Assembly: GCF_025152745.1 (NCBI RefSeq)
Contig: NZ_CP104042.1
Location: 124,001-188,000, forward strand
DNA length: 64,000 bases
Direction of reading: 5' to 3'
Source: Rhizobium sp. WSM4643
GTDB taxonomy: Bacteria > Pseudomonadota > Alphaproteobacteria > Rhizobiales > Rhizobiaceae
Shown here one piece after another: positions 2,942 to 64,000 of this stretch (its first letter is position 1; each line of letters opens with the position of its first letter). The position numbers and the translations under genes are program-made. The notes beneath the pieces are model-generated. The model did no database searches. It saw only the letters and a program-made list of their open reading frames with translations, and was not told the DNA's origin.

Positions 2942-3891
2942 TTGAAGACGGCCCGGTACGGCTCGACATTCTCCTTGGTCACGATGGTGATCGGTACCGA
3001 GATCGTCTTGGTGACGGCCTCGCCGGCCGAAGCCTTGACGAGCGCGTCGACGGCGGCACCGCCCATTGCGGCCGGATCCTGCTGGACGACGGCGACGACG
3101 AAGCCGGCATCGATGCCGGCAATGGCTTCGGCCGTTAGATCCCAACCGAACACCTTGATTTTATCCTGCTTGCCCTGGCTCTGGACAGCGGCGATCGCCC
3201 CCATCAAGGCCGGCTCGCCGGTGGCGTAGATCGCGGTCAGATCAGGATTGGCGGTGATCAGGTTTTCAGCCGCCGCAAGAGCGTTGTCCTGGATGTTCTG
3301 CCCGTCGACGACGCCGGCCATTTCAATGCCGTCGACGCCTTTCAAGGTCTTCTCGAAGCCGTCCTGGCGGATGTTCTGGATGAACGAGTTCAGCGCGCCG
3401 ACAACGCCGAGCTTGGCCTTGCCGCCCATGTTCGCCTTGACGTAGTCGAGGAAGTATTTGCCCATGTCGGCGCCGGCCGCGGCATTGTCCACGCCGATCT
3501 GCGCCTTCTGCGGGCCATCAGGCAGGATGGCGTCGATGGCGACGACCGGAATGCCGGCATCGGCCGCCTGCTTGACCGCCGGCATGATGCCGTTGACGTC
3601 GATCGCCACGACGGCAAGGCCGGAGACCTTTTCCTGGACGTAGGTTTCGATCGCGCTGTTTTGCGCGGTCGTCTCATTGTTGGCGTTGAAGATCACCAGC
3701 TTGACGCCGGCGGCATCGGCCGCCTTCTGGGCGCCCTCATTCATCTGATTGAAGAAAAGCGCCTGCTGGTTGATCTGCACCAGCGCGATGGTCTTCTTTT
3801 CCTGTGCCGCAGCGCTGGCCAGGCCGATGAAGGTCAATGCCGTGAAGCCGGCGGCTGCGATCATCGTTCGTCTTGTCAAATTCACTGTCAT
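2938..3891 (-). CDS. Periplasmic sugar-binding protein, ribose/fructose type
   Basis: A 317-residue periplasmic binding protein of the Peripla_BP_4 (RbsB/FrcB) family. It begins with a twin-arginine-containing signal region (LTRRTMIAAAGF) and a hydrophobic stretch ending near AAAQ. The mature part starts KKTIALVQIN and contains the family pattern VAIDVNGIMPAVKQAADAG. The ATG at 3891 follows a GAGGATGAGAAC ribosome site; an in-frame extension upstream has no such support. It is the first transporter gene after the LacI gene and captures the substrate for the permease and ATPase downstream. Ligand unknown. Confidence 0.9.
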   Translation of the reverse strand: MTVNLTRRTMIAAAGFTALTFIGLASAAAQEKKTIALVQINQQALFFNQMNEGAQKAADAAGVKLVIFNANNETTAQNSAIETYVQEKVSGLAVVAIDVNGIMPAVKQAADAGIPVVAIDAILPDGPQKAQIGVDNAAAGADMGKYFLDYVKANMGGKAKLGVVGALNSFIQNIRQDGFEKTLKGVDGIEMAGVVDGQNIQDNALAAAENLITANPDLTAIYATGEPALMGAIAAVQSQGKQDKIKVFGWDLTAEAIAGIDAGFVVAVVQQDPAAMGGAAVDALVKASAGEAVTKTISVPITIVTKENVEPYRAVFK

Positions 3892-3929
3892 GTTCTCATC
3901 CTCTTTTGGTTTTTTGACGTTGCTGATTG

Positions 3930-6333: not shown

Positions 6334-7221
6334 TCATTTGACTGCTCCGGCGGCGATGCCGCGCGTTAACGTGCGCTGGAAGATCAAGAAGAAGATCACG
6401 GTCGGTATTATACCCAGGAAAGCCGCCGAGGCCTGCAGCACCGGGTCCGACATATTCTGACCGCGGGTAAGGCCCATGGCGACCGAGACCGTCTGGTTGT
6501 TGTTGGACACCAGCATGACGAGCGGGATCAAGAATTCGTTCCAAGTCCAGATGAAAAAGAAGGTTCCGAGGACCATGAGTGTTGGCCGCAGTACTGGGAC
6601 GATGACGAACCACAGCGTTTTCCAGTGGGTCGAACCATCCATCTCGGCCGCTTCGAGGATTTCCTTGGGAAAGGTACTCAGCACGGTCGAGAGCAGGTAA
6701 GTCCCGAACGCGCTTTGCAGGACCGCGAAAATAATGATCACGGAAAGCTGCGTATCGTAGAGACCGCTCGCTTTCGCCATGTAGTAAAGTGGGTAGATGA
6801 TCGATTCCTGCGGCACCATAATGCCCAGAAGAAAGACCACCAAAATCACGCGCGAACCCGGCACCTTGCCGACCCCAATCGCATAGGCGTTGAACAGGCT
6901 TATCAGTACCCCTAACACCGACACGGCGAGACTGATCACCACGCTGTTGAGCAGCTTGCGGCTGAAATCAGACACGGTCCAGAATTTCTCGATCGCCGTG
7001 AGATCGATCGACCGGGGAATCGAAAGCGGTCCGCCGACCGCGTATTCGGCACTCGCCTTGACGGCGTTGAGCAGAGCAAGGAAAAAGGGAAACAGCGTAA
7101 AGGCGAGGAGTAGAATAAGGATGGCCAGCACCACCCACCGCATGGGATCGCGTCGCGCGCGATCGGCTGCCACCGTCGCCTTTGCCTTGGTCGTACCATC
7201 GCTGAGAACTGAGTAAGCCAT
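6334..7221 (-). CDS. Carbohydrate ABC importer permease, MalG type
   Basis: A 295-residue inner-membrane permease of the MalG/UgpE type with about six membrane segments; the first spans residues 30-50 (VLAILILLLAFTLFPFF). The EAA loop appears as EAAEMDGSTHWKTLWFVIVPVLRPT near residue 190 and contacts the ATPase. It starts 3 bases after the stop of the MalF-type gene, so the two are translationally linked. The protein ends GIAAGAVK, the usual C-terminus of the family. Substrate unknown. Confidence 0.92.
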   Translation of the reverse strand: MAYSVLSDGTTKAKATVAADRARRDPMRWVVLAILILLLAFTLFPFFLALLNAVKASAEYAVGGPLSIPRSIDLTAIEKFWTVSDFSRKLLNSVVISLAVSVLGVLISLFNAYAIGVGKVPGSRVILVVFLLGIMVPQESIIYPLYYMAKASGLYDTQLSVIIIFAVLQSAFGTYLLSTVLSTFPKEILEAAEMDGSTHWKTLWFVIVPVLRPTLMVLGTFFFIWTWNEFLIPLVMLVSNNNQTVSVAMGLTRGQNMSDPVLQASAAFLGIIPTVIFFLIFQRTLTRGIAAGAVK

Positions 7222-11725: not shown

Positions 11726-12769
11726 ATGAAGGGGATTCGCCAGCTTGCCGAACACTTGAATATCTCGATCGGCACGGTCTCCCGCGCGCTGAACGGCAAG
11801 CCTGATGTCAATCAGGAAACCCGCCGGCGGGTGCTGGCGGCGGCCGAGGAACTCGGCTACGTCGCCAACCAGTCTGGGCGGAGCCTGAGGCAGGGGGAGA
11901 CAAAGGTCATCGGGTTGATGATCGAATCCAGCAAGGAGACGGTCGAGAATGCCGACAACTTCTTCCTCGGCGTCACCAGCGGCCTGCAGAGCGTCTTTGC
12001 TCGTCACAAGCTCGACCTCATCATGTTGCCCTGCCCGAGCGATGAGGATCCGCACGAATATCTGAAGCGGATGGTGGCGCGGCGCATCGTCGACGCGATG
12101 ATCATCTCGGACACGCAGCGCGTCGACCGACGCATCGACTTTCTGTCGCGGGCGAAGATCCCCTTCGTCGCGCTCGGCCGCAGCCTTTCGGCCAGCAATT
12201 TTCCTTGGATCGATCTCGATTTCGAGGGCGTGGCCGACCATGCTGTCGAGCGGCTGATCACGCTGGGACATCGCCGGATCGCAATCACCGCGCCATCGAG
12301 CGAGGCCAACCTCGGCTATCTCTTTATCGACAGCTATCGCCGGGCGCTCGAGCGGCACGATATTGCCTTCGACCCCTCACTCGTCATCCGCGTCAGGTCG
12401 AGCGAACAGGGCGGCTATCAGGCGGCCCATGAGCTGCTGCTGCTCGAAGAGCGGCCGACGGCGGTGATCCTGATCTACGAGCTGATGGCGATCGGCCTTT
12501 ACCGCCGCCTGATGGAATCGGGCGTCATGCCCGGCCGCGACCTTGCGGTGATCGGCTTCCGCGACGCTCCGCGCGCACGGTTCCTGCAGCCGTCGCTGAG
12601 CTGCTTCCGCATCTCGCTCTACGATCTCGGTGTTGCGCTCGGCCAGATGCTTCTCGCCAACATGCCTGCCTATCGAGATTTCTATCCGGGAGGCGAGCGC
12701 AACATCATCTGGCCGCTCGAACTGATGCCGGGCGAAAGCGATGCGTTTCGGGTTGGGGTCATGGCCTGA
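11726..12769 (+). CDS. LacI-family transcriptional regulator
   Basis: A 347-residue regulator. The helix-turn-helix is at residues 1-25 (IRQLAEHLNISIGTVSRALNG), followed by the hinge GYVANQSGRSLRQG and an effector-binding domain starting VIGLMIESS. The start is the ATG at 11726 rather than the one at 11702, because 11702 lies inside a palindromic repeat; the ribosome site (GGGGA at 11709) is distant, so this remains uncertain. It is divergent from the oxidoreductase-importer operon and is its likely repressor through the palindrome at 11557-11570. Confidence 0.9.
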   Translation: MKGIRQLAEHLNISIGTVSRALNGKPDVNQETRRRVLAAAEELGYVANQSGRSLRQGETKVIGLMIESSKETVENADNFFLGVTSGLQSVFARHKLDLIMLPCPSDEDPHEYLKRMVARRIVDAMIISDTQRVDRRIDFLSRAKIPFVALGRSLSASNFPWIDLDFEGVADHAVERLITLGHRRIAITAPSSEANLGYLFIDSYRRALERHDIAFDPSLVIRVRSSEQGGYQAAHELLLLEERPTAVILIYELMAIGLYRRLMESGVMPGRDLAVIGFRDAPRARFLQPSLSCFRISLYDLGVALGQMLLANMPAYRDFYPGGERNIIWPLELMPGESDAFRVGVMA

Positions 12770-12777
12770 GCACTATC

Positions 12778-52751: not shown

Positions 52752-53588
52752 TTATTTGATTGCGCCGGCCGCGATGCCGGCGATGAAATGGCGCTGAAGA
52801 GCCACGAAGATGACGAGGATCGGCGCCGTCAGCAGCACCGCGCCGGCCATGATGCCGCCCCAGGAGACCTTGGTGAGGCCGATCAGCGTTCCCAATGCCA
52901 CCGGCGCCGTCATCATCCCCGGTCTGGAATTGATCAGCAGCGGCCAGAGGTAATTGTTCCACGAGTGCAGGAACAGAATGATCGCCAATGCCGCCATGGT
53001 CGGGCGCGCCAGCGGCAAGGCGATGCGCAGGAAGATCTGCCATTCCTTGACGCCCTCGACTCGGGCCGCATCAAAGAGCTCGCCCGGCATCATTGAGAAG
53101 GATTGCCGCATGAACAGCACCCCGAGCGAATTGAACAGCGGCGGCACGATCAGCGCCACCCAGGTGTTTGCCAGCTTGAACTCGCGCGCCACCATGATGA
53201 ATTGCGGGATGACGACCACGGAGAACGGAAGCGTGATCGTGCCGAGGATGATGGCGATGACGACGGAGCGGCCGACGAAACGGTAACGCGCCAGCGCCCA
53301 GCCGGCCATCGAGGTCAGCAGCACCGAGAGCACTGTATAGATGAGCGCCACGCCGATGGAGATCACCATCGCGCCGATGAAATCGGTATCGGCCTGCAGG
53401 TTTTTGAAATTCTCGACGAAGTTGGTCGACGGCCAGAGCACGATGTCAGGACTGAAGATGCCGTTGTCGGGCATGGTCGAAAAGACGAACATCATCCAGA
53501 GCGGAAACAGCCAGATCAGCGCCAGCGGCGCCAGTGCGGCATGCAACGCGATCTGGCGCAGCAGAAGGGATTGCGATTTGGATTTCAT
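52752..53588 (-). CDS. Carbohydrate ABC importer permease, MalG type
   Basis: A 278-residue inner-membrane permease with the first segment APLALIWLFPLWMMFVFST, the EAA-like loop DAARVEGVKEWQIFLRIALPLARPT near 185, and the family C-terminus GIAAGAIK. It overlaps the MalF-type gene by 4 bases and precedes the ATPase gene by 24. Confidence 0.92.
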   Translation of the reverse strand: MKSKSQSLLLRQIALHAALAPLALIWLFPLWMMFVFSTMPDNGIFSPDIVLWPSTNFVENFKNLQADTDFIGAMVISIGVALIYTVLSVLLTSMAGWALARYRFVGRSVVIAIILGTITLPFSVVVIPQFIMVAREFKLANTWVALIVPPLFNSLGVLFMRQSFSMMPGELFDAARVEGVKEWQIFLRIALPLARPTMAALAIILFLHSWNNYLWPLLINSRPGMMTAPVALGTLIGLTKVSWGGIMAGAVLLTAPILVIFVALQRHFIAGIAAGAIK

Positions 53589-54448
53589 TTCGGATCCCTC
53601 CCGACCCAGAGATTGAAAAGCGAGATCGCCACGGCAAGGGCGGCCATCGTATAGGCGATCGCCGAGGCATAGCCGAAGTTCAGCGAGGTGAAGCCCTGGC
53701 GATAAAGCAGCAGGCCGAGCGTCTCGGTGCCGCCGCCAGGACCGCCGCGATTGGTGATCAGGAAGGGCTCGGCGAACAGCTGCATGGTGCCGATCACCGA
53801 GAGCACCACGCAGAAGAGGATGATCGGTTTGAGGAGTGGCAGGGTGATGTGGAAGAACTGCTGGACCTTGCTCACCCGATCGAGCGTCGCAGCCTCGTAG
53901 ACATCATCGGGAATCGACTGCAGGCCGGCGAGGATGATGATGGCGTTGTAGCCGGCCCAGCGCCATGTGACGGCAAGGATGATCAGCGCCATGGCGGCAT
54001 TTGCATTGTCGAACCAGGAGACCGGGCTGAGACCAACAGCCGAGATCAGCTTGTTGATGATGCCGAAATCGAGGCTGAACATCAGCCGGAAGACGGCAGC
54101 GTAGGCGACCTCGCCGACGACGACAGGCGCAAAGAAGGCGAAGCGGAAGAGCGGCCGGGCTTTCAGCAGCGGCGAATTGAGCAGCACGGCCATGACTGTC
54201 GCAAGCGCGATCATCACAGGCACCTGGATCACCAAGATGATCAGCGTATTGTAGAGAGCGTTGTAGAAAGCCGGGTCATAGAAGAGCCGGCCCCAATTGG
54301 CTTGGAAACTGAATTTCCACGGATTGATTCGCGTGTTCTGAAACGAAATCAGGAACGAATTGATGATCGGCCAGACCCAGAAGGTGGCAAAGACCAGCAG
54401 ATAGGGGGCGAGGAACGCATAGGCGCTCCGGGTTCTGAACGGCATCAA
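53585..54448 (-). CDS. Carbohydrate ABC importer permease, MalF type
   Basis: A 287-residue inner-membrane permease with the first segment YAFLAPYLLVFATFWVWPII and the coupling loop DDVYEAATLDRVSKVQQFFHITLPLLKP near 200. Its length is standard for the family, with no large periplasmic loop. It lies 80 bases after the binding-protein gene. Confidence 0.92.
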   Translation of the reverse strand: MMPFRTRSAYAFLAPYLLVFATFWVWPIINSFLISFQNTRINPWKFSFQANWGRLFYDPAFYNALYNTLIILVIQVPVMIALATVMAVLLNSPLLKARPLFRFAFFAPVVVGEVAYAAVFRLMFSLDFGIINKLISAVGLSPVSWFDNANAAMALIILAVTWRWAGYNAIIILAGLQSIPDDVYEAATLDRVSKVQQFFHITLPLLKPIILFCVVLSVIGTMQLFAEPFLITNRGGPGGGTETLGLLLYRQGFTSLNFGYASAIAYTMAALAVAISLFNLWVGRDPK

Positions 54449-54528
54449 GCCTCCTCCTCACGAACGAATGACCGGCTGCTTTGCAAGCCGGGGGGAAACC
54501 GGGCGCCTGAAGCGCCCGGCATCGTCAT

Positions 54529-55803
54529 TCATTGCGCGATCGGAAGGCCGGTCGCCGAAGCAATCTGCTTGGCGGCATCGTCGAGAGCCGCCTTTGCATC
54601 GGGATAGCCGCCAGCGAAGAACTTCGTCTGCGTCGCCTTGAAGATGGCTTCGGCATCGCTCTGGAAGGCGGTGCCGCGGCTCGGCACGATCTTGGGCAGT
54701 GTCGCCAGAATATCGGCCCAGACCTTCTGGCCGCCCCAATAGGGCTGCGGCTCGTTGACGAAGGGATCCTTCTCGGCCGAAAGCAGCGACGGGACCAGAC
54801 CGAATTCCTTCAGCATGGTGATCTGGCCCTCATCCGTGCCGAGGGCGTAGTTGACGAATTTCCAGGCGGCTTCCTTATTCGCGGATGTCGCCGAAATGGC
54901 GAGCGACGAACCGCCGAGATTGGCCGCATGCGGGCCATCGGCCGTCAGGCTCGGCATTCTGTAGACGCCCCACTTGCCCTTCAGATCGGGCGAGGTCGAG
55001 CGCACGGTGCCCTCGTACCAGCCGCCATACAGCTGGCTTGCGGCCTTGCCGGCGGTATTGGCCTGGATCTTTTCGTCCCAGTTTGCTGCCGTCAGCGTGC
55101 CGGCATCCTTCATTTCCTTCACCTTTTGCAGCGAGGCGACGCAGGCCGGCTGGTTGATGGTGATATTCTGGCCGTCGGTCGAGTAATAGCCGCAGCCCTG
55201 TTCGTTGGCGATCATGCGAAACCATTCGCTGTCGCCGTTGAAGTCGGCCTGGGCCATGACGACGCCGGGATTGGCGGCGGAAATCTTCTTGCCGGCGGCG
55301 ATGAAATCGTCCCAGGTGCTGATCGTGCTCGGATCGACGCCGGCCTTTTCGTAGAGATCGCGGCGGTAGAAGACGGCGACGGGGCCGGAATCCCACGGCA
55401 TGGCGTAAGCGACATCGCCGACCTCGAGCTCGGTGCGCTTGAAGTCAGGGAATTTCGCCTGGATATCGGCCGTGTAGCCGAGCTCCTTCAGATTGGCGAA
55501 GCAATCCGGGAAACGGCTCCAGAAGATTTCAGCCTCGAAATTCTCGATGCTGACAATGTCGGGCAAGCCATCGCCGCCGGCAGCGCAGGCAGCGAGCGTC
55601 TTGTCGAAGACCTGGCTGTTGCCGAGGTCCTCGACGGTGATCTTGATATCGGGAAACTGCTTGTTGAAGCCTGGAAGCGTGGACTTCAATGCCGATGCAG
55701 CGACATTCCAGCTCCAGATGGTGAGATTGGCCGGCTGCGCGAATGCGGAGCCGGAAGCAAGCATTGCGACAGCTGCGGTCGCAGCGAGAAGTTTGAAACG
55801 CAT
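54529..55803 (-). CDS. Extracellular sugar-binding protein, family 1
   Basis: A 424-residue binding protein with a Sec signal of 22 residues (MRFKLLAATAAVAMLASGSA, then FA). The mature domain contains ANLTIWSWNVAASALK and the family pattern FNKQFPDIKITVEDLG. GGGAGGATTTTCA precedes the ATG at 55803, so the 110-residue upstream extension antisense to the AraC gene is rejected. It opens the operon with two permeases, an ATPase and the double-oxidoreductase fusion, and is divergent from an AraC regulator. Confidence 0.92.
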   Translation of the reverse strand: MRFKLLAATAAVAMLASGSAFAQPANLTIWSWNVAASALKSTLPGFNKQFPDIKITVEDLGNSQVFDKTLAACAAGGDGLPDIVSIENFEAEIFWSRFPDCFANLKELGYTADIQAKFPDFKRTELEVGDVAYAMPWDSGPVAVFYRRDLYEKAGVDPSTISTWDDFIAAGKKISAANPGVVMAQADFNGDSEWFRMIANEQGCGYYSTDGQNITINQPACVASLQKVKEMKDAGTLTAANWDEKIQANTAGKAASQLYGGWYEGTVRSTSPDLKGKWGVYRMPSLTADGPHAANLGGSSLAISATSANKEAAWKFVNYALGTDEGQITMLKEFGLVPSLLSAEKDPFVNEPQPYWGGQKVWADILATLPKIVPSRGTAFQSDAEAIFKATQTKFFAGGYPDAKAALDDAAKQIASATGLPIAQ

Positions 55804-55887
55804 TGAAAATCCTCCCTTTTCAATTGCCGATCTTACGAACGCGGTTAAACTATCTGCAAGGGAGCGGCTGTCTCCTAAAAAGGGAAC

Positions 55888-56805
55888 ATGGATTTGGCGG
55901 AAAGTAAGATCGGTACGCGTGCAATCTACCAGCCCGGCGCAAGCAGCATCGAGGGGTTGCCGACGGCGCTGCAAATATTTCACGCTCATCCGCCTGTTAT
56001 GGCCATGCCGCACTGGCACGCGCAGGTCGAGGTCAACTACGCGATTCGCGGCACCGTTCATTACCGCATGAGCGACCATGAATTCCGGTTGAACGCCGGC
56101 GAAATGTGCCTCTTCTGGGGTGGCCAGCCGCATCAGATGGATGAATCCTCAGACGATTCGCTCTATGCCGGCGCCCATCTGCCGCTCGTCTATTTCTTCC
56201 GGCTGCGCCTGCCGATCAGCGTTTCCAGCCGGCTGATGAAGGGCGAGACGCTGCTGACATCGGCAACGGACGCCGCCGACAACGAGAACTTCACCCGCTG
56301 GTTTCGCTATGCCAACTCAGGCGATCCCGCCAAGGCCCAGCATGCCGTGGACGAGCTGCTGCTGCGCATCGAGCGCATCGCGCTCGAACCCTATTCGATG
56401 ACGTCGCAGGCAACCGTCAATCTCGAAGGGGATCACCCGCATCCGCATTCCTCGCGCAGCGTGGCTCGCATGTGCGATTTTATCGCCGCTAATTTCCTGC
56501 ACGACATCGATTCCGTCGATATCGCCCGCGCCGCCGACCTGCATCCGAAATATGCGATGAACCTGTTCAAACGATCGACCGGCATGACGCTCAGCAAATA
56601 TGTGACGCTGCTGCGGCTGTCGCGCGCCCAGGCGATGCTGATGACCGAGGGCGCCAATGTGCTGCAGGTGGCGATGGACAGCGGCTTCGGCTCGATCAGC
56701 GCCTTCAATAAGTCCTTCCGCCACATCGCCGGCATGTCGCCGTCGAATTTCCGCCGCGACATCCGGCTGGTGACGACGATGCCCTCCGGCGCTTTCCGCA
56801 ACTAG
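55888..56805 (+). CDS. AraC-family transcriptional regulator, MelR-like
   Basis: A 305-residue regulator. The N-terminal cupin-type sensing domain carries MPHWHAQVEVNYAIRGTVHY and FWGGQPHQM, resembling MelR and related sugar regulators. The C-terminal pair of helix-turn-helix motifs covers about 195-290, with ARAADLHPKYAMNLFKRSTG and VAMDSGFGSISAFNKSFRHI. It is divergent, across 84 bases, from the sugar importer operon starting at 55803, which it probably activates when sugar binds. Confidence 0.9.
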   Translation: MDLAESKIGTRAIYQPGASSIEGLPTALQIFHAHPPVMAMPHWHAQVEVNYAIRGTVHYRMSDHEFRLNAGEMCLFWGGQPHQMDESSDDSLYAGAHLPLVYFFRLRLPISVSSRLMKGETLLTSATDAADNENFTRWFRYANSGDPAKAQHAVDELLLRIERIALEPYSMTSQATVNLEGDHPHPHSSRSVARMCDFIAANFLHDIDSVDIARAADLHPKYAMNLFKRSTGMTLSKYVTLLRLSRAQAMLMTEGANVLQVAMDSGFGSISAFNKSFRHIAGMSPSNFRRDIRLVTTMPSGAFRN

Positions 56806-56902: not shown

Positions 56903-56930
56903 GCACATTTTCTGTGCAAGTGCATGCACT
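56903..56930 (+). promoter_or_regulatory. Putative NtrC-type enhancer sites
   Basis: GCACATTTTCTGTGC (56903-56917) fits the NtrC core GCAC-N7-GTGC exactly and is extended by an A/T match in each arm. A perfect palindrome, AGTGCATGCACT (56919-56930), follows at once and may be a second, weaker site. The first is centred about 106 bases before the predicted sigma-54 start, a usual enhancer distance. Nitrogen-limitation control of the guanidine operon is inferred. Confidence 0.65.
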
Positions 56931-56989
56931 ATGCATTTCCGGGAGAATTGATGCCATCGCATTATCAATGAAATCAATGATTTATAATT

Positions 56990-57005
56990 TGGCACACCCC
57001 TTGCT
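56990..57005 (+). promoter_or_regulatory. Sigma-54 (RpoN) promoter of the guanidine operon
   Basis: TGGCACACCCCTTGCT matches the -24/-12 consensus TGGCAC-N5-TTGC. The GG at 56991-56992 and GC at 57003-57004 are separated by the required 10 bases. The start would fall at about 57016, just before the riboswitch aptamer, so the transcript begins almost directly with the aptamer. Confidence 0.82.
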
Positions 57006-57019
57006 TCGGTATTTGCAGA

Positions 57020-57127
57020 GTTGGTGGCTAGGGTTCCGGCGTCGCAAGACGTGACTGGTCCGAGAGCTGCCACCGGCGAGGGAGACATCCCGCCGGGTGC
57101 ACGGCGGGACAAAAGCCCGGGAGACCT
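57020..57127 (+). ncRNA. Guanidine-I riboswitch (ykkC class)
   Basis: The conserved ykkC blocks are all present and in order: GGTGGCTAGGGTTCCG, a CGTC-GCAA-GACG hairpin, TGACTGGTCCGAGAGC, GCCACC closing with the first GGTGGC, a GGGA-GACA-TCCC hairpin, and ACGGCGGGACAAAAGCCCGG followed by GAGA. This class binds guanidinium and turns downstream genes on. The genes after it (importer, DUF1989 pair, urea/guanidine carboxylase) are the classic targets of this switch. Confidence 0.95.
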
Positions 57128-57132
57128 CGTAA

Positions 57133-57174
57133 GCCAAGGGATTGGCGGCACGATGGTCATTGCCGATCCCTTTT
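57133..57174 (+). terminator. Riboswitch expression platform: terminator with competing hairpin
   Basis: AAGGGATTGGC (57136-57146) pairs with GCCGATCCCTT (57162-57172) with one G-U pair, followed by TTTT ending at 57174: an intrinsic terminator with a short U-run. GCCAA-GGGA-TTGGC (57133-57146) is an alternative hairpin that uses the same 5' strand and would prevent the terminator. A guanidine-bound aptamer probably favours the latter (inference). The gene start follows at 57200. Confidence 0.7.
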
Positions 57175-57199
57175 GAAGAAAAGCAAAAGGGGAATTTCA

Positions 57200-58273
57200 A
57201 TGCAGACTTTTTCGAAGATTCTTTCCATGACCGCCCTGACGGCGTCCCTGGCGCTCGGGCTCGTTTGCCAAGCCAAAGCCGAACAGAAGACGGATTTCAA
57301 GGTCGCCTGGTCGATCTATGTCGGCTGGATGCCCTGGGGCTACGCCGCCGATCACGGCATCGTCAAGAAATGGGCCGACAAATACGGCATCAAGATCGAG
57401 GTCACCCAGTTCAACGACTACGTCGAATCGATGAACCAGTATACCGCCGGCGCCTTCGATGCCGTGACGCTGACCAACATGGACGGCCTGTCGATCCCGG
57501 CCGCCGGCGGCGTCGATACGACAGCAGTCATCGTCGGCGACTTCTCGAACGGCAATGATGCCGTCATCCTCAAGAACAAGACGAGCCTTGCCGACATCAA
57601 GGGCCAGAATGTCAATCTCGTCGAATTTTCCGTCTCGCATTATCTGCTTGCCCGCGCGCTCGAAAGCATCAAGCTGACCGAGCGTGACGTCAAGGTGGTC
57701 AACACGTCCGACGCCGATATGGTCGCCGCCTACAAAACGGCAGACGTGACCGCAGTCGTCACCTGGAACCCGCTGGTCTCGACCATTCTCGAGGATCCCA
57801 CGGCCAAGAAAGTCTTCGACAGCTCGCAGGTGCCGGGCGAAATCATCGACCTGATGGTCGCCAATTCAGGCGTGCTGAAGGACAATCCGAATTTCGGCAA
57901 GGCGCTCGCCGGCATCTGGTATGAAACCGCCGCCCTCCTGACCGCCGACAGCGCCGATGGCAAGGCTGCGCGCGAGGCGATGGGCCAGGCATCGGGCACC
58001 GATCTCAAGGGCTACGAGTCCCAGCTCGCCGCCACCAAGCTGTTTGCAAAGCCGGCCGATGCAGTCGCCTTTACAGCCTCGGGCAGCCTGTCGAAGACCA
58101 TGGATCTCGTCCGCAACTTCCTGTTCGAGAAGGGTCTGCTCGGCAATGGTGCGCCATCGGCCGACGTCATCGGCATCGAAATGCCGGACGGGAAGGTTCT
58201 CGGCGACAGCGGCAACGTCAAGCTGCGCTTCACCGAGACCTACATGAAGGCGGCCGCCGACGGTTCGCTCTGA
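57200..58273 (+). CDS. Guanidine-operon ABC importer substrate-binding protein
   Basis: A 357-residue periplasmic binding protein of the nitrate/sulfonate/taurine type. The signal peptide is about residues 1-26 (ending CQAKA); the mature part begins EQKTDFKVAWSIYVGWMPWGYA, and YTAGAFDAVTLTNMDGL matches the family. AAGGGGAATTTCA precedes the ATG at 57200. As the first gene under a guanidine-I riboswitch it is expected to bind guanidine or a guanidino compound; the automatic family name (taurine or nitrate) would mislead. Confidence 0.9.
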   Translation: MQTFSKILSMTALTASLALGLVCQAKAEQKTDFKVAWSIYVGWMPWGYAADHGIVKKWADKYGIKIEVTQFNDYVESMNQYTAGAFDAVTLTNMDGLSIPAAGGVDTTAVIVGDFSNGNDAVILKNKTSLADIKGQNVNLVEFSVSHYLLARALESIKLTERDVKVVNTSDADMVAAYKTADVTAVVTWNPLVSTILEDPTAKKVFDSSQVPGEIIDLMVANSGVLKDNPNFGKALAGIWYETAALLTADSADGKAAREAMGQASGTDLKGYESQLAATKLFAKPADAVAFTASGSLSKTMDLVRNFLFEKGLLGNGAPSADVIGIEMPDGKVLGDSGNVKLRFTETYMKAAADGSL

Positions 58274-58338
58274 GCGATCCCAAAGCAGTGGCGCGGCGTT
58301 GACCGCGCCGTCCACCTTTCATCAGCGGAGCTTTCCTC

Positions 58339-59157
58339 ATGCGCTGGATCAACACGAGGCCGAGCCGGGGCGCGCAGCTTGCCTTGACGCTGCTGCCCTT
58401 CGTGCTGCTGACCGTTGTCTACACGGTCGGCTCGGCCGAACGGCTGGCGGAAAACGCCAACGACAAGCTGCTGCCCGGCCTTGCCGGTTTTGCAGATGCG
58501 ATCGACCGCCTGGCCTTCATCGCCGATCCGCGCACCGGACAATATCTGCTCTGGTCCGATACGGGGGCGAGCCTGATCCGGCTGTTGGCCGGCCTCGGCA
58601 TCTCCACAGTCACCGCGCTTATCATCGGCATGCTGATCGGCATGCTGCCGTATCTCCGAGCCCTGCTCTCCCCCTTCGTGGCCGTCATCTCGATGGTGCC
58701 GCCACTGGCGCTGCTGCCAATCCTCTTCATCGCCATGGGGCTCGGAGAAGCCTCGAAGATCGCGCTGATCGTCATCGGCGTCGCGCCGACGATGATCCGC
58801 GACCTCGCGCTGAAGGCGCTGGAGCTGCCGCGCGAACAGATCGTCAAGGCTGAAACGCTCGGCGGTTCCTCCTGGCAGATCGGCCTTCGTGTCGTGCTGC
58901 CGCAGATCCTGCCGCGGCTGATCACCTGCCTCAGGCTTCAGCTCGGTCCAGCCTGGCTGTTCCTGATTGCGGCCGAGGCGATCTCGTCGGATTCCGGCCT
59001 CGGCTACCGCATCTTCCTCGTCCGCCGTTATCTCTCGATGGACATCATCTTTCCCTATGTCGTCTGGATCACGCTGCTCGCCGTGGTCATGAATTATATC
59101 CTCGATCGCATCCGCATCGCCGTCTTCCCCTGGTCGGAGCTGGAGAAGCAGGCATGA
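58339..59157 (+). CDS. Guanidine-operon ABC importer permease
   Basis: A 272-residue SsuC/TauC-type permease with about six membrane segments. The first is QLALTLLPFVLLTVVYTVGS; the coupling loop is REQIVKAETLGGSSWQIGLRVVLPQILP, near residue 180. GGAG lies 12 bases before the ATG. It overlaps the ATPase gene by 4 bases. Confidence 0.9.
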   Translation: MRWINTRPSRGAQLALTLLPFVLLTVVYTVGSAERLAENANDKLLPGLAGFADAIDRLAFIADPRTGQYLLWSDTGASLIRLLAGLGISTVTALIIGMLIGMLPYLRALLSPFVAVISMVPPLALLPILFIAMGLGEASKIALIVIGVAPTMIRDLALKALELPREQIVKAETLGGSSWQIGLRVVLPQILPRLITCLRLQLGPAWLFLIAAEAISSDSGLGYRIFLVRRYLSMDIIFPYVVWITLLAVVMNYILDRIRIAVFPWSELEKQA

Positions 59158-59984
59158 GCGAGTTGGTGATCGAAAAGATCTGGAAAGAGTATGGCGACCA
59201 GATCGTCCTCGAAGACGTGTCGCTGACGGTCGCCTCGCGCGCCTTCGTCGCTCTCGTCGGCTCATCCGGCTGCGGCAAGTCGACATTCCTGCGCATGCTG
59301 CTCGGCCAGGAGCGGCCGACGCGAGGGACAATCCTGCTCGACGGCGAAGCCCTGCCGCAGGAGCCGGGGCCGGATCGCGGCGTCGTCTTCCAACGCTACT
59401 CCGTCTTCCCGCATCTGACCGTCCTCGGAAACGTGCTACTCGGGCGGGAACTCTCGGCGTCTCGCTGTAAGGCCAAGCTTTTCGGCGCTGCCCGTCAAAA
59501 CGCCATCGACGAAGCCCGGCGGCTGATTGCCGAAGTCGGCCTTTCCGGCGCCGAGGACAAATATCCGGCGCAACTATCAGGCGGCATGCAGCAGCGCCTG
59601 GCGCTGGCGCAGGCGCTGATCATGAAGCCGAAGGTGTTGCTGCTCGATGAGCCCTTCGGCGCGCTCGACCCCGGCATTCGCGCCGAAATCCACACGTTGA
59701 TGAAGCGGCTCTGGCACGAAACGCAGATGACCGTCGTCATGGTGACGCACGACATGCGCGAGGCCTTCACGCTGGCGACGCGCGTCGTCGCCTTTGAGCG
59801 CAAGCGTGACCGCCCGGAGGAAAAGGAGCGCTACGGCGCGACAATCACCAAGGACATTTCGATCTGGCCGCCGAGGCTTGCCGGCACGCCCTCCATCTTC
59901 AGCCCCGACCGGGACGGCCCGGTCATTTCTCTGGGCCTTCGCCGGGACGACCCGGCTTCCAGTCCGTCAGGAGAAAAACCATGA
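59154..59984 (+). CDS. Guanidine-operon ABC importer ATPase
   Basis: A 276-residue SsuB/TauB-type ATPase with Walker A GSSGCGKST (about 37-45), Q-loop FQRYSVFPHL, signature LSGGMQQR, Walker B LLLDEPFGALD and H-loop THDM. The C-terminal 45 residues after the ABC core are Pro/Arg-rich and low in complexity. Its stop overlaps the start of the first DUF1989 gene (ATGA). Confidence 0.9.
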   Translation: MSELVIEKIWKEYGDQIVLEDVSLTVASRAFVALVGSSGCGKSTFLRMLLGQERPTRGTILLDGEALPQEPGPDRGVVFQRYSVFPHLTVLGNVLLGRELSASRCKAKLFGAARQNAIDEARRLIAEVGLSGAEDKYPAQLSGGMQQRLALAQALIMKPKVLLLDEPFGALDPGIRAEIHTLMKRLWHETQMTVVMVTHDMREAFTLATRVVAFERKRDRPEEKERYGATITKDISIWPPRLAGTPSIFSPDRDGPVISLGLRRDDPASSPSGEKP

Positions 59985-60802
59985 TGCATGTCAGGCGTTC
60001 GCCCGAAGAAATCGCCGCCAACCGGCAGCGCTACGAGGAACATCAGAAGAAGGGGCTGGAATTTGCCCCAAAGGCCTTGCCGGCGCCGAGCCCCCTGCCC
60101 GCTCCCGCGATCGACGCGGCTGCGATCATCCATCAGGAAACCATCCCCGGCGGCTGGTACTGGTCGACTGCGGTCAAGCGCGGCGAGGCGCTCCGCATTG
60201 ACCAGAATGAAGGCGGATCGACTGTAGCGCTCGTTGCCTGGAACGCCACTGATACCAGCGAACGGCTCAATCTCGTCGATACGGTCAAGGTGCAGTGGAC
60301 GACCGCCCTCGGCAAGGGCCGCGTCATCTTCTCGGATATGGGCCGGGTGATGTTTTCTCTGATCGAGGATAGTTCCGGCGCGCATGACTGCCTGATGGGC
60401 GGCTCGACGGCAGCGTCGAACGCTGCAAGATATCCCGGCATCAAGACCCGCAATACCCGCGACAATCTCGTGATCGTCGCCGGCAAGCTTGGTCTCACCA
60501 GGCGCGATATTCCGGCGATTCTCAATCTCTTCGCCCCCGTCCGCGTCGACGATGACGGCGGCTTCCATTGGCGCGGCAAGCTCTCCAACAGCGGCGACTA
60601 TACCGAGTTGCGCGCCGAAATGGACATGATCGTCGGCCTCTCGAATTGCCCGCATCCGCTCGATCCCGACCCGGTCTATGCGCCGAAGCCGGTGATCGTC
60701 ACGCGCTTTCGCGCAGCCGAGCCCGCAGTCGACGACCTCTCGCGCACCGCAACCGCCGAAGCCCTGCGCGGCTTCGAGAATAACGCCGCGATGCTGGCCT
60801 GA
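59981..60802 (+). CDS. Urea carboxylase-associated protein 1 (DUF1989), probable carboxyguanidine deiminase subunit
   Basis: A 273-residue DUF1989 protein. Family features include IPGGWYWSTAVKRGEALRI, HDCLMGGSTAASNAAR with a Cys-type metal/active-site cluster, and LSNCPHPLDPD near the end. In guanidine-degrading bacteria two such proteins (CgdA and CgdB) form the carboxyguanidine deiminase, which converts carboxyguanidine to allophanate and ammonia. CAGGAGAAAAACC precedes the ATG. Which subunit this is cannot be fixed here. Confidence 0.88.
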   Translation: MMHVRRSPEEIAANRQRYEEHQKKGLEFAPKALPAPSPLPAPAIDAAAIIHQETIPGGWYWSTAVKRGEALRIDQNEGGSTVALVAWNATDTSERLNLVDTVKVQWTTALGKGRVIFSDMGRVMFSLIEDSSGAHDCLMGGSTAASNAARYPGIKTRNTRDNLVIVAGKLGLTRRDIPAILNLFAPVRVDDDGGFHWRGKLSNSGDYTELRAEMDMIVGLSNCPHPLDPDPVYAPKPVIVTRFRAAEPAVDDLSRTATAEALRGFENNAAMLA

Positions 60803-60814
60803 GGGAGGATAAAG

Positions 60815-61465
60815 ATGACCGATTTCATCAAGACTTCTGCTTCGCGCGGCCTCGAAAACGCCGTGCAGGATCATTTCATTCCGGCCGAAGCGCCATGGTC
60901 CGGCATCGTGCGCAAGGGCCAGACCATCCGCATCGAGGACAGCTACGGCCAACAGGCAATCGACACGCTGTTTTATCGCGCCGATGATTTTGCCGAGCGT
61001 TATTCCGACCAGGATACGATGCGGGCGCAGGGTGGCGCCTATATCGGCACCGGCACGAAGATCATCTCGAACGAGGGCAACGTCATGCTGGTCATGACGG
61101 CCGACAGCTGCGGCCGCCACGATACATCAGCTGGCGCCTGCTCCTGCGAGAGCAACACGGTGCGCTTTGGCCACGGCACCAAATACCTGCATGCCTGCCG
61201 CGACAATTTCGTGATCGAGGTAACCAAACACGGCATGAGCAAGCGCGACATCGTGCCGAACATCAATTTCTTCATGAACGTGCCGATCAAGCCGAACGGC
61301 GAGATGACCATTGTCGACGGCATTTCCGCACCCGGCGACTATATCGAGCTGGTGGCGGAGATGGACGTGCTCTGCGTCATCTCCAACTGCCCGCAGATCA
61401 ACAATCCCTGCAATGGCTTCGATCCGACGCCGATCCGGGTGCTGATCTGGGACGGCGAGGACTGA
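60815..61465 (+). CDS. Urea carboxylase-associated protein 2 (DUF1989), probable carboxyguanidine deiminase subunit
   Basis: A 216-residue DUF1989 protein, paralogous to the preceding one. SYGQQAIDTLFYRADDFAER lies near residue 46, SCGRHDTSAGACSCESNTVRFG (about 103-124) is Cys/His-rich, and VISNCPQINNPCNGFDPTPIRV closes the protein. GAGGGAGGATAAAG is a strong ribosome site. Its 12-base distance from its partner and 3-base distance to the carboxylase gene support one enzyme pathway. Confidence 0.88.
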   Translation: MTDFIKTSASRGLENAVQDHFIPAEAPWSGIVRKGQTIRIEDSYGQQAIDTLFYRADDFAERYSDQDTMRAQGGAYIGTGTKIISNEGNVMLVMTADSCGRHDTSAGACSCESNTVRFGHGTKYLHACRDNFVIEVTKHGMSKRDIVPNINFFMNVPIKPNGEMTIVDGISAPGDYIELVAEMDVLCVISNCPQINNPCNGFDPTPIRVLIWDGED

Positions 61466-61468
61466 TCG

Positions 61469-64000
61469 ATGTTTACCAAGGTCCTGATCGCCAACCGCGG
61501 CGAAATCGCCGTCCGCGTCATCCGCACATTGAAGAGGATGGGCATCGCCTCGGTCGCCGTCTATTCCGATGCCGATCGGTTCTCGATGCCGGCGCTGACC
61601 GCCGACGAGGCCATGCGCCTCGGCCCGGCGCCGGCAGCCGAGAGCTATCTCAACGTCGATGCCGTCATCGCCGCCTGCAAGGCGACGGGAGCCCAGGCTG
61701 TGCATCCGGGCTATGGCTTCCTCTCGGAGAATATCGGCTTTGCCGAGCGGCTTGCCGCCGAGGGTATCGCCTTCATCGGCCCGCGGCCGGAACATCTGTC
61801 GGCCTTCGGCCTGAAGCACACGGCGCGCGAACTGGCGAAAGCCAGCGGCGTGCCGCTGCTGCCCGGCACCGATCTCTTGCAGAGCGTCGAAGAGGCGCTT
61901 TCGGCCGCAGAAACCGTCGGCTATCCCGTCATGCTGAAGAGCACGGCTGGCGGCGGCGGCATCGGCATGCAGCTCTGCGCCGATGCCGCAAGCCTCAGGG
62001 CCTCTTTCGAAAGCGTACAGCGGACCGCCCGCGCCAGCTTCGGCGATGCGCGTGTCTATATCGAGCGCTTCGTTGCCGAAGCACGCCATGTCGAGGTACA
62101 GATCTTCGGCGACGGCAAGGGCCGCGTGATCGCGCTTGGCGAACGCGACTGCTCGCTGCAGCGGCGGAACCAGAAGGTCGTCGAGGAGACTCCTGCACCT
62201 GGCCTCTCCGCGGAGACAAGGGCGCGGCTGCACAAGGCGGCGATCGATTTGGGAAGCTCGGTCTCCTATGAATCGGCCGGCACCGTCGAATTCATCTATG
62301 ATCCCCAGCGTGAGGAATTCTATTTCCTTGAGGTCAATACCCGCCTGCAGGTCGAGCATCCTGTCACGGAAGCCGTCTTCGGCATCGACCTCGTCGAATG
62401 GATGATCCGGCAGGCGGCCGGCGAGGACGTGCTCTCGGGCGCCAGAGGCCTGACGCCGAAGGGTGCGGCGATCGAGATGCGTATCTATGCCGAGATGCCG
62501 CATGCCGATTTCCGCCCGAGCGCCGGCCTGCTGACCGAGGTTGTCTTCCCGGACAATGCTCGCGTCGACGGCTGGATCGAGACGGGAACCGAGGTCACGC
62601 CCTTCTATGATCCGATGCTCGCCAAGCTGATCGTGGCGGCGGAAGACCGGCCGGCGGCGATCGAGAAGCTGAAGGCAGCACTCGCCGAAACGTCGATATC
62701 AGGCATCGAGACCAATCTCGATTATTTGAGAACGATCGCCGCTTCCGAGCTGCTTGCCGGCGCCAAAGTGGCGACGACGGCGCTGCGCGACTTCGCCTTC
62801 GTTCCCGATGTCGTCGAGGTTCTCGCACCGGGCGCACAGTCAAGCATCCAGGAACTGCCGGGCCGGCTCGGCCTCTGGCATGTCGGCGTGCCGCCGAGCG
62901 GTCCGATGGACGAGCGCTCCTTCCGCCATGCCAACCGGCTGGTCGGCAATATCGACGTGACGGCTGCACTCGAATTGACGGTTTCCGGCCCGACATTGCG
63001 GTTTTATGCCGACCAGACGATCGCGCTTGCCGGCGCCCGGATGGCGATGACATGCGACGGCATAAAGTTGCCGCATGATGCGCCAGTACTGATCCGTGCC
63101 GGTCAGGTTCTGTCGATTGGTACGATCGAAGGACCAGGACAGCGCGCCTATCTCGCCGTCGCCGGCGGTTTTGCCGCACCCGTCGTGCTCGGTTCGCGCG
63201 CGACTTTCGGCCTCGGTCAGTTCGGCGGCAACGCCACCGGTACGCTGAAGACAGGACATGTGCTGCATTTTGCTCGGGAGGCGCCGGCCGAACCGGCCGG
63301 ACCGGCAACGGAGCCGGCCGCCTTGACGCGCGAATGGGATGTCGGCGTGGTCTACGGTCCGCACGGCGCGCCAGATTTCTTCGAGGATAACGATATCGAG
63401 ACGCTGTTCTCGACGGCCTACGAAGTGCATTTCAACAGCGCCCGCACCGGCGTTCGCCTCATCGGTCCTGCCCCGGTTTGGGCGCGCCACGATGGCGGCG
63501 AGGCTGGGCTGCACCCCTCCAACCTGCACGACAATGCCTATGCGATCGGGGCGATCGATTTCACCGGCGACATGCCGATCATTCTCGGCCCCGATGGCCC
63601 AAGCCTTGGCGGCTTCGTCTGCCCGGCGGTGATTGCCCGCGACGAGCAGTGGAAGATGGGCCAGTTCAAGCCCGGCGACCGTATCCGCTTTCATGCAGTC
63701 GTGCGGCCGGAAGACCCGATCGCTGGTCCAGCGGTACGGCGGGTCGCGGAAGAAACGGGTTCGCCGATCGTCGGCACCAGCGAGGAGGGACCGGTTTCGG
63801 TCGTCTATCGCCGGCAGGGCGACGACAACCTGCTCGTCGAATATGGGCCGATGACGCTTGATATCGCGCTTCGGCTGCGGGTGCATCTGCTGATGCAGGC
63901 CGTTGTCGAGGCTCGCCTTCCCGGCATCGTCGACCTTACCCCCGGCATCCGCTCGCTGCAGATCCATTATGACGGCACGCAGCTGACGCGCCGGCGCCTG
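61469..64000 (+). CDS. Urea/guanidine carboxylase, C-terminus cut by window end
   Basis: The 844 codons present run to the last base with no stop. Residues 1-450 are a biotin carboxylase domain: IANRGEIAVRVIRT, the glycine loop KSTAGGGGIGM (about 157-167) and EVNTRLQVEH (288-297). From residue 462 (ELPGRLGLWHVGVPPSGPMDE) comes the KipA-like part of the carboxyltransferase, then the start of the KipI-like part. The rest of KipI and the biotin carrier domain lie beyond the window. Under a guanidine-I riboswitch and beside two DUF1989 genes it most likely carboxylates guanidine rather than urea; the active-site residues that would prove this were not compared. Confidence 0.93.
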   Translation, partial: MFTKVLIANRGEIAVRVIRTLKRMGIASVAVYSDADRFSMPALTADEAMRLGPAPAAESYLNVDAVIAACKATGAQAVHPGYGFLSENIGFAERLAAEGIAFIGPRPEHLSAFGLKHTARELAKASGVPLLPGTDLLQSVEEALSAAETVGYPVMLKSTAGGGGIGMQLCADAASLRASFESVQRTARASFGDARVYIERFVAEARHVEVQIFGDGKGRVIALGERDCSLQRRNQKVVEETPAPGLSAETRARLHKAAIDLGSSVSYESAGTVEFIYDPQREEFYFLEVNTRLQVEHPVTEAVFGIDLVEWMIRQAAGEDVLSGARGLTPKGAAIEMRIYAEMPHADFRPSAGLLTEVVFPDNARVDGWIETGTEVTPFYDPMLAKLIVAAEDRPAAIEKLKAALAETSISGIETNLDYLRTIAASELLAGAKVATTALRDFAFVPDVVEVLAPGAQSSIQELPGRLGLWHVGVPPSGPMDERSFRHANRLVGNIDVTAALELTVSGPTLRFYADQTIALAGARMAMTCDGIKLPHDAPVLIRAGQVLSIGTIEGPGQRAYLAVAGGFAAPVVLGSRATFGLGQFGGNATGTLKTGHVLHFAREAPAEPAGPATEPAALTREWDVGVVYGPHGAPDFFEDNDIETLFSTAYEVHFNSARTGVRLIGPAPVWARHDGGEAGLHPSNLHDNAYAIGAIDFTGDMPIILGPDGPSLGGFVCPAVIARDEQWKMGQFKPGDRIRFHAVVRPEDPIAGPAVRRVAEETGSPIVGTSEEGPVSVVYRRQGDDNLLVEYGPMTLDIALRLRVHLLMQAVVEARLPGIVDLTPGIRSLQIHYDGTQLTRRRL

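Follow-up and report, generated by a model that had tools for sequence, protein, structure and literature searches.

The 64,000-nucleotide stretch of Rhizobium sp. WSM4643 analysed here (contig NZ_CP104042.1; hereafter the window) carries an operon for guanidine use in which a Guanidine-II (mini-ykkC) riboswitch lies wholly within the 3' coding end of an ABC importer ATPase gene (59154-59984), 25 nt upstream of the start of UAAP1, the predicted gene for a carboxyguanidine deiminase subunit. The operon is headed by a sigma-54 promoter motif and a Guanidine-I (ykkC) leader, and the intragenic Guanidine-II element is probably an ON switch for UAAP1 translation. A first-pass annotation of the window had correctly recognised the pathway and the Guanidine-I element, but had noted neither the sigma-54 promoter nor the second riboswitch nested in the ATPase gene.

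A Guanidine-II element within the ATPase coding sequence

An Rfam scan of the whole window returned two matches over cut-off, Guanidine-I and Guanidine-II, and at E ≤ 0.001 each model had a single match in the 6.4-Mb genome, that of the operon and that inside the ATPase gene, respectively. Guanidine-II riboswitches are usually found in 5' leaders or intergenic gaps. The present element, however, lies within the ATPase frame (stop at 59984), where it spans about codons 251-268 and falls within the last 25 codons. As in Rfam RF01068, there are two paired hairpins (P1 and P2) with ACGR loops, and the linker may mask a Shine-Dalgarno sequence, the difference being that the Rhizobium copy is in coding sequence. 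The ATG of UAAP1 shares bases with the ATPase TGA (ATGA), and in the annotation of a relative the ATPase gene is likewise 831 nt long and likewise overlaps UAAP1 by 4 nt. By the several sequence tests given below the intragenic element is real, and it may be expected to bind its ligand and to function as a switch.

Selection at the 3' end of the ATPase gene acts on the RNA and not on the peptide. Across 94 ATPase genes, the nine codons that form the stems and loops had a mean synonymous diversity of 0.039, against 0.368 (standard deviation 0.047) for matched amino acids elsewhere in the gene; a value as low as that of the aptamer codons did not occur in 100,000 resamplings. The same was seen with 68 sequences less than 93% identical (0.048 versus 0.380; 0/100,000 resamplings as low). 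The codon for Arg253 was CGG in 89 of the 90 cases in which arginine was present, while CGC was used for Arg226 in 82/92 cases and for Arg241 in 62/93. At codons 264 and 267, compared in 81 genes, the combinations Arg-Pro (G-C, 37 genes), Arg-Leu (G-U, 32) and Gln-Leu (A-U, 9) were found alongside single cases of Gln-Pro (A-C), Trp-Leu and Pro-Pro. Covariation was examined in 74 sequences, five of the 79 distinct regions (L184, L243, L254, L258 and G313) being omitted from the set. Of 962 cells, 96.6% were paired, compared with 95.2% in shuffles and at most 53.8% when the register was slid; changes on both sides occurred in 7 of the 13 pairs, against 1.5 in shuffles, with none of 500 shuffles as high, four of the 13 pairs being invariant and hence uninformative on covariation.

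The codon phases in which the P1 and P2 loops are read were (1,1) in 87 inside-type loci, (0,2) in three of family f91, (2,0) in one of f35 and (1,2) in one of f27. A fifth combination was a chance hairpin pair in a control locus with Guanidine-I only (L058) and was ignored; two loci missed by the hairpin finder (L043 and L267) were counted as inside, as Infernal places the aptamer there. Different lineages translate this RNA in different phases and therefore encode different peptides there. It is the synonymous constraint, the covariation and the four phase combinations together that establish the RNA, rather than the peptide, as the object of selection.

The distribution of the element was followed through the order (397 genomes), the class (289 genomes) and a set of named loci; named loci and numbered genomes overlap (L240/G187, L228/G385, L205/G281 and L243/G322), so that these sets are not independent. 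With matches at E ≤ 0.001 counted, 111 of the 397 genomes carry Guanidine-II and 101 carry Guanidine-I; over cut-off the numbers are 103 and 77, respectively. There were 121 Guanidine-II hits in the order, of which 119 were examined (the other two, in G392 and G177, are without operon genes), and 25 of these are flanked by an ATPase homologue (>50% identity) on one side and by UAAP1 on the other. In 15 of the 25 the ATPase frame ends past the aptamer, in two between the hairpins and in eight before the aptamer. Among 80 named loci, the aptamer was inside the ATPase gene in 68, partly inside in seven and absent by a 4-bp hairpin criterion in five (15 under a stricter 5-bp version); these five comprise L243, L254 and L258, which are without an aptamer by this criterion, and L184 and L200, which carry a shortened form. 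Outside the order, the inside position was seen in nine genomes, and in two further loci, identified from hairpins only, the aptamer lies past the ATPase stop. In 42 loci, a chosen part of the Guanidine-I matches, selected for having no Guanidine-II match nearby, one (L179) has an ATPase-UAAP1 junction without an aptamer, and one other genome, viewed twice in overlapping stretches, has an unlisted inside-type aptamer.

The annotation of others also places the ATPase stop past the aptamer in three records, from a relative, from Thioclava (Rhodobacterales) and from Sinorhizobium; the relative's annotation table lists no riboswitch, but holds no RNA genes at all. On a quick ATPase tree (71 rows, long branches), at least five changes between the inside and outside positions are needed. 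As judged from these sequences, it is the ATPase stop codon that shifts, the aptamer holding its place ahead of UAAP1.

Two variants deserve description. In Rhizobium phaseoli JHI366 (L184:4957-5003) an in-frame shortening of the ATPase gene by 33 nt leaves one hairpin instead of the two in close relatives, the UAAP1 overlap being intact, which makes it a natural one-hairpin variant. The Thioclava plasmid (L279) has an additional Guanidine-II match directly 3' of the allophanate hydrolase gene (12730-12774), which, with a Guanidine-I before the importer and a Guanidine-II inside the ATPase gene, gives three switches in about 10 kb.

Proposed mechanism and competing explanations

In the mechanism proposed here, the P1-P2 linker would, in the absence of guanidine, pair with the Shine-Dalgarno sequence of the deiminase gene UAAP1. 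With guanidine present, the hairpin loops would kiss and the linker would be kept away, leaving the deiminase gene translatable, much as the available part of PMC9094411 proposes for Guanidine-II, where kissing loops hold back an anti-Shine-Dalgarno sequence. Because the ATPase TGA and the deiminase ATG overlap, ribosomes finishing the ATPase would pass through the aptamer, and deiminase output would be set both by guanidine and by the flow of ribosomes arriving from upstream genes under Guanidine-I control. Binding, switching direction and translational coupling are all presumptive, the direction being taken by analogy from published work on Guanidine-II.

When the window region is folded without ligand, linker bases AUUUCUC are predicted to pair with GGAGAA of the UAAP1 Shine-Dalgarno sequence, around P2. 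The predicted values for the bases A, G, G, A, G, A and A being unpaired were 0.98, 0.25, 0.01, 0.01, 0.01, 0.02 and 0.09 in the free fold and 0.36, 0.06, 0.03, 0.68, 0.82, 0.90 and 0.92 with the linker masked. In 73 relatives, the mean accessibility of the GGAG-type core was 0.29 free, 0.58 with the linker masked and 0.40 with shuffled linkers.

Several observations weigh against a translational ON switch of this kind. Masking of the linker in the window frees only AGAA (0.01-0.09 to 0.68-0.92), both G residues remaining paired and the first A becoming mostly paired, and the fold alone thus does not give a fully free site. The lower accessibility relative to shuffled linkers (0.29 versus 0.40) was seen in 48 of the 73 relatives; linker:Shine-Dalgarno duplexes beat shuffled linkers only modestly (median rank 35 of 200, with 10/73 in the best 5%); and the consensus fold of 74 relatives consists of two hairpins with no linker helix. 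The window region itself folds only 1.8 standard deviations better than shuffles, 8 of 200 being as good. The inside position is also not universal: the ATPase stop precedes the aptamer in 8 of the 25 loci within the order and in 2 of the 11 outside it, and falls between the hairpins in 7 of the 80 named loci, while three named loci have no aptamer by the hairpin criterion and two a shortened form. Translation of the aptamer is therefore not required. Ribosomes passing through may, moreover, melt the aptamer and override it.

That last effect could also be the point of the arrangement. In a more tentative version, rather less likely than the simple ON switch, the nesting is itself a regulatory device: ribosomes translating the ATPase would repeatedly open the aptamer, so that Guanidine-II could sense guanidine only in the gaps between them, and deiminase synthesis would read both guanidine and upstream ribosome traffic. 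This would constitute a two-receptor coincidence gate on top of sigma-54 nitrogen control, in which the two receptors possibly differ in ligand breadth. According to the available text of PMC12508155, the Guanidine-II element of Vreelandella boliviensis also accepts methylguanidine.

It is unlikely that the aptamer works but is made irrelevant by translation, UAAP1 being expressed by plain termination-reinitiation at the ATGA and the aptamer being a relic. An ATGA-type overlap is present in 47 of the 68 inside-type loci (with the UAAP1 start inferred by homology), the locus represented by L243/L179 keeps the operon and the overlap without an aptamer, L184 has lost 33 nt in frame and retains one hairpin, and Mycobacterium tuberculosis ppe2 reinitiates at an AUGA beside a riboswitch, as described in the accessible part of PMC11260477. 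A relic, however, would not be expected to show the strong synonymous constraint and compensatory changes seen in Rhizobium and its relatives, and the anti-Shine-Dalgarno sequence forms part of the predicted window fold.

Instead of controlling UAAP1 initiation, the element might act on the upstream gene or transcript, through mRNA stability, premature termination or a slowing of ribosomes near the end of the ATPase gene, but this appears very improbable. P1 together with AUUUCUCU was flagged as terminator-like, though four such sites were found in the scanned stretch against 2.9 expected; as relatives do not conserve the T-rich tail and the site count is near chance, P1 was rejected as an intrinsic terminator. 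The position of the Shine-Dalgarno sequence 12 nt past P2 and a complementary P1-P2 linker, as in the model given in the available portion of PMC9094411, instead point to UAAP1 initiation. Finally, selection for a repeated RDDP-type peptide at the ATPase C-terminus, with the aptamer match as a by-product, is scarcely credible and was rejected on the codon, covariation and phase tests: the 87 inside-type loci do read both hairpins in one codon phase and give similar peptides (DRDGPV and RRDDPA in the window), but synonymous sites are nearly fixed, amino-acid changes track base pairing, the same RNA yields peptides such as GGTAR..LPGRPG in the three f91 genomes, RGRP..AGTTR in G313 and DRDDP..RPGRPG in G324, the same aptamer lies past the ATPase stop in eight order loci, and Guanidine-I heads the operon too.

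The guanidine operon, its promoter and its leader

The features of the operon are collected in Table 1. The first-pass annotation had placed a ykkC aptamer at 57020-57127, followed by an ABC importer, two DUF1989 genes and a urea-carboxylase-type gene, and had predicted an allophanate hydrolase and the biotin domain of the carboxylase beyond the end of the window. The Rfam match begins three bases before and ends two bases before that placement, profile matches recovered every gene, and when the same contig was read past 64000 both the hydrolase and the biotin domain (Biotin_lipoyl, aa 1117-1176) were present.

Table 1. Predicted features of the guanidine operon (window coordinates)
Feature	Position	Strand	Basis or remark
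NtrC-like palindrome GCAC-N7-GTGC (weak)	56903..56917	not assigned	exact match
Sigma-54 (-24/-12) promoter motif TGGCACACCCCTTGCT	56990..57005	+	12/12 consensus positions (GG-N10-GC)
Guanidine-I (ykkC) aptamer	57017..57125	+	RF00442 full length, 84.0 bits, gathering score 63, E 1.6e-13 (64-kb scan)
Guanidine-I expression platform	57126..57199	+	
ABC importer substrate-binding protein	57200..58273	+	TIGR03427, 551 bits, cut-off 333.9 (scanned from 57209)
ABC importer permease	58339..59157	+	PF00528, 70.6 bits
ABC importer ATPase	59154..59984	+	ABC domain matches stop near aa 215 of 276
Guanidine-II (mini-ykkC) riboswitch	59906..59955	+	RF01068, 40.2 bits, gathering 32
Guanidine-II hairpins	P1 59907-59924, P2 59941-59956	+	ACGG and ACGA loops
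P1-P2 linker	59925..59940	+	anti-Shine-Dalgarno UUUCUC 59926-59931
UAAP1 Shine-Dalgarno AGGAGAA	59969..59975	+	within ATPase frame; 12 nt past P2
UAAP1 / CgdA, carboxyguanidine deiminase subunit	59981..60802	+	TIGR03425, 294.7 bits, cut-off 205.95
UAAP2 / CgdB, carboxyguanidine deiminase subunit	60815..61465	+	TIGR03424, 334.2 bits, cut-off 284.7
Guanidine carboxylase	61469..64000, runs on to 65008	+	TIGR02712, 1804 bits, 1179 aa
Allophanate hydrolase	65010-66815 (L003 11011-12816)		TIGR02713, 783.9 bits, cut-off 511.05

The start of the substrate-binding protein was chosen after the annotated gene of a relative, which is also 1074 nt long, and that of the allophanate hydrolase was set one base past the carboxylase stop, again following a relative's annotation. 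UAAP1 and UAAP2 both belong to DUF1989 and are assigned, by models matched over cut-off, to the carboxyguanidine deiminase subunits CgdA and CgdB. In the carboxylase, D697 aligns to N1330 and D932 to D1584 of the Kluyveromyces lactis urea carboxylase (3va7). Aspartate at both positions is, in the available part of PMC11410670, required of guanidine carboxylases and sets them apart from urea carboxylases, and the protein, which combines a TIGR02712 match with both residues, is a guanidine carboxylase as defined there. The asparagine at K. lactis position 1330 that marks a urea carboxylase proper is replaced by aspartate. It is the only TIGR02712 protein over cut-off in the genome, which encodes a separate urease, so that urea use would not need the guanidine operon.

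The predicted gene products, UAAP1/UAAP2, guanidine carboxylase and allophanate hydrolase, thus support the assignment of the operon to the known guanidine-to-ammonia route that had been proposed for it under Guanidine-I control. Urea carboxylation with taurine/nitrate import was rejected as the true function in view of the carboxylase's two diagnostic aspartates and the presence of both guanidine aptamers; the expectation that standard annotation would speak of taurine/nitrate transport was itself not quite right. The substrate specificity of the importer is presumed from its context. The closest UAAP1 relatives (93-95% identity) belong to Rhizobium of the leguminosarum group, many root-nodule members of which carry the guanidine operon, and a 1649-base stretch was found with 96% identity on a plasmid of Rhizobium sp. 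The laboratory strain R. johnstonii 3841 also has the operon (L190).

Upstream of the operon, TGGCACACCCCTTGCT is the sole 12/12 sigma-54 match on either strand of the window, scored against the -24/-12 consensus, and ends 11 nt upstream of Guanidine-I. With a predicted transcription start near 57016, the transcript would begin with the Guanidine-I riboswitch. A site of at least 9/12 was located 22-25 nt upstream of the Guanidine-I core in all 79 named loci having a core, and within 120 nt of 38 of 49 order or class cores (a set in which the locus of the window itself is counted and one genome appears more than once, as L168, L169 and L276), compared with 885 of 20,000 random 120-nt stretches. 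The motif points to guanidine as a nitrogen source under nitrogen limitation, and the operon is likely to be under nitrogen control. Only 13 of 79 upstream regions from related loci contain the NtrC-like palindrome in exact form, the chance being 0.4% per 220 nt; being so poorly conserved, it was rejected as an NtrC site and retained as a hint only. COG3665 is presumably the DUF1989 group. In the accessible part of PMC12316311, 102 genes of COG3665 are reported as sigma-54 regulated, 59% of them named urea carboxylase, so that sigma-54 control of a DUF1989-type gene is already on record in general terms.

Guanidine-I would be expected to bind guanidine and to switch expression through the platform that follows it. 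There, CCCTTTT (57168-57174) is able to pair with AAAAGGGG (57185-57192), the Shine-Dalgarno sequence of the next gene, or alternatively with the upstream AAGGGATTGGC, giving a terminator-like helix. These models allow either structure, the first of which would sequester the Shine-Dalgarno sequence, and the platform may control translation in addition to, or in place of, termination. All 25 related platforms displayed, from 49 unique ones, had a hairpin of the CCCTTTT/AAAAGGGG type in their predicted folds.

The region before the operon (53585-56805) holds a divergent ABC transporter (permease and solute-binding protein) and an AraC-type regulator (55888-56805), which are not obviously operon members. 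Two genes for SMR-family exporters are found elsewhere in the genome (G000:C1:3329983-3330255 and 2131058-2131336); neither has a Guanidine-I or Guanidine-II match, classes III and IV not having been searched there.

Relation to known systems

The pathway and its control by Guanidine-I are already known, and the sources, as far as available, describe operons with both riboswitch classes from three enterobacteria as well as from Vreelandella. What appears to be new here is a Guanidine-II within the coding sequence of a transporter gene, with ATPase ribosomes that would pass through it. No published report of a Guanidine-II inside a transporter gene was found in a search of mainly open-access literature, which does not prove its absence. 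The same letters serve as aptamer and as codons, and evolution has visibly preserved the RNA at the expense of codon choice. The locus makes it testable whether an aptamer can function under translating ribosomes and whether upstream translation gates it, and riboswitch searches confined to untranslated regions would miss intragenic switches of this sort.

In Vreelandella boliviensis, as presented in the available part of PMC12508155, both riboswitch classes, the importer, cgdA/B, the carboxylase and the allophanate hydrolase are likewise combined in one operon, which additionally holds mgdH/mgdL. Its Guanidine-II is, however, intergenic between cgdB and gca, whereas that of Rhizobium lies before cgdA and inside the ATPase gene. 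The three enterobacteria are, so far as the available descriptions go, similar in having Guanidine-I before the importer and deiminase and Guanidine-II for later genes, but their Guanidine-II serves the carboxylase and allophanate hydrolase. The two-class guanidine operon thus has a second layout in Alphaproteobacteria. The nearest precedent found for translation through or next to a riboswitch is the ppe2 B12 switch of M. tuberculosis. In the accessible text of PMC11260477, the ppe2/metE B12 riboswitches resemble the present case in joining a riboswitch with a translated upstream open reading frame, in ppe2 with an AUGA overlap and termination-reinitiation, but they involve a short leader frame rather than the conserved end of an ATPase, and they differ in class, ligand and direction (OFF).

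Plasmids of Pantoea agglomerans and Paraburkholderia sprentiae have Guanidine-II in the UAAP2-uca gap. A Novosphingobium record (L281), one of five further plasmid records, has UAAP1, UAAP2 and uca with no guanidine riboswitch over cut-off in the fetched stretch, and in the Paraburkholderia sprentiae stretch no importer lies between Guanidine-I and UAAP1. The latter (L280) has two Guanidine-I aptamers on opposite strands (3806-3929 and 6756-6888), one before UAAP1 and the other across a small group of genes, one of them for an oxygenase.

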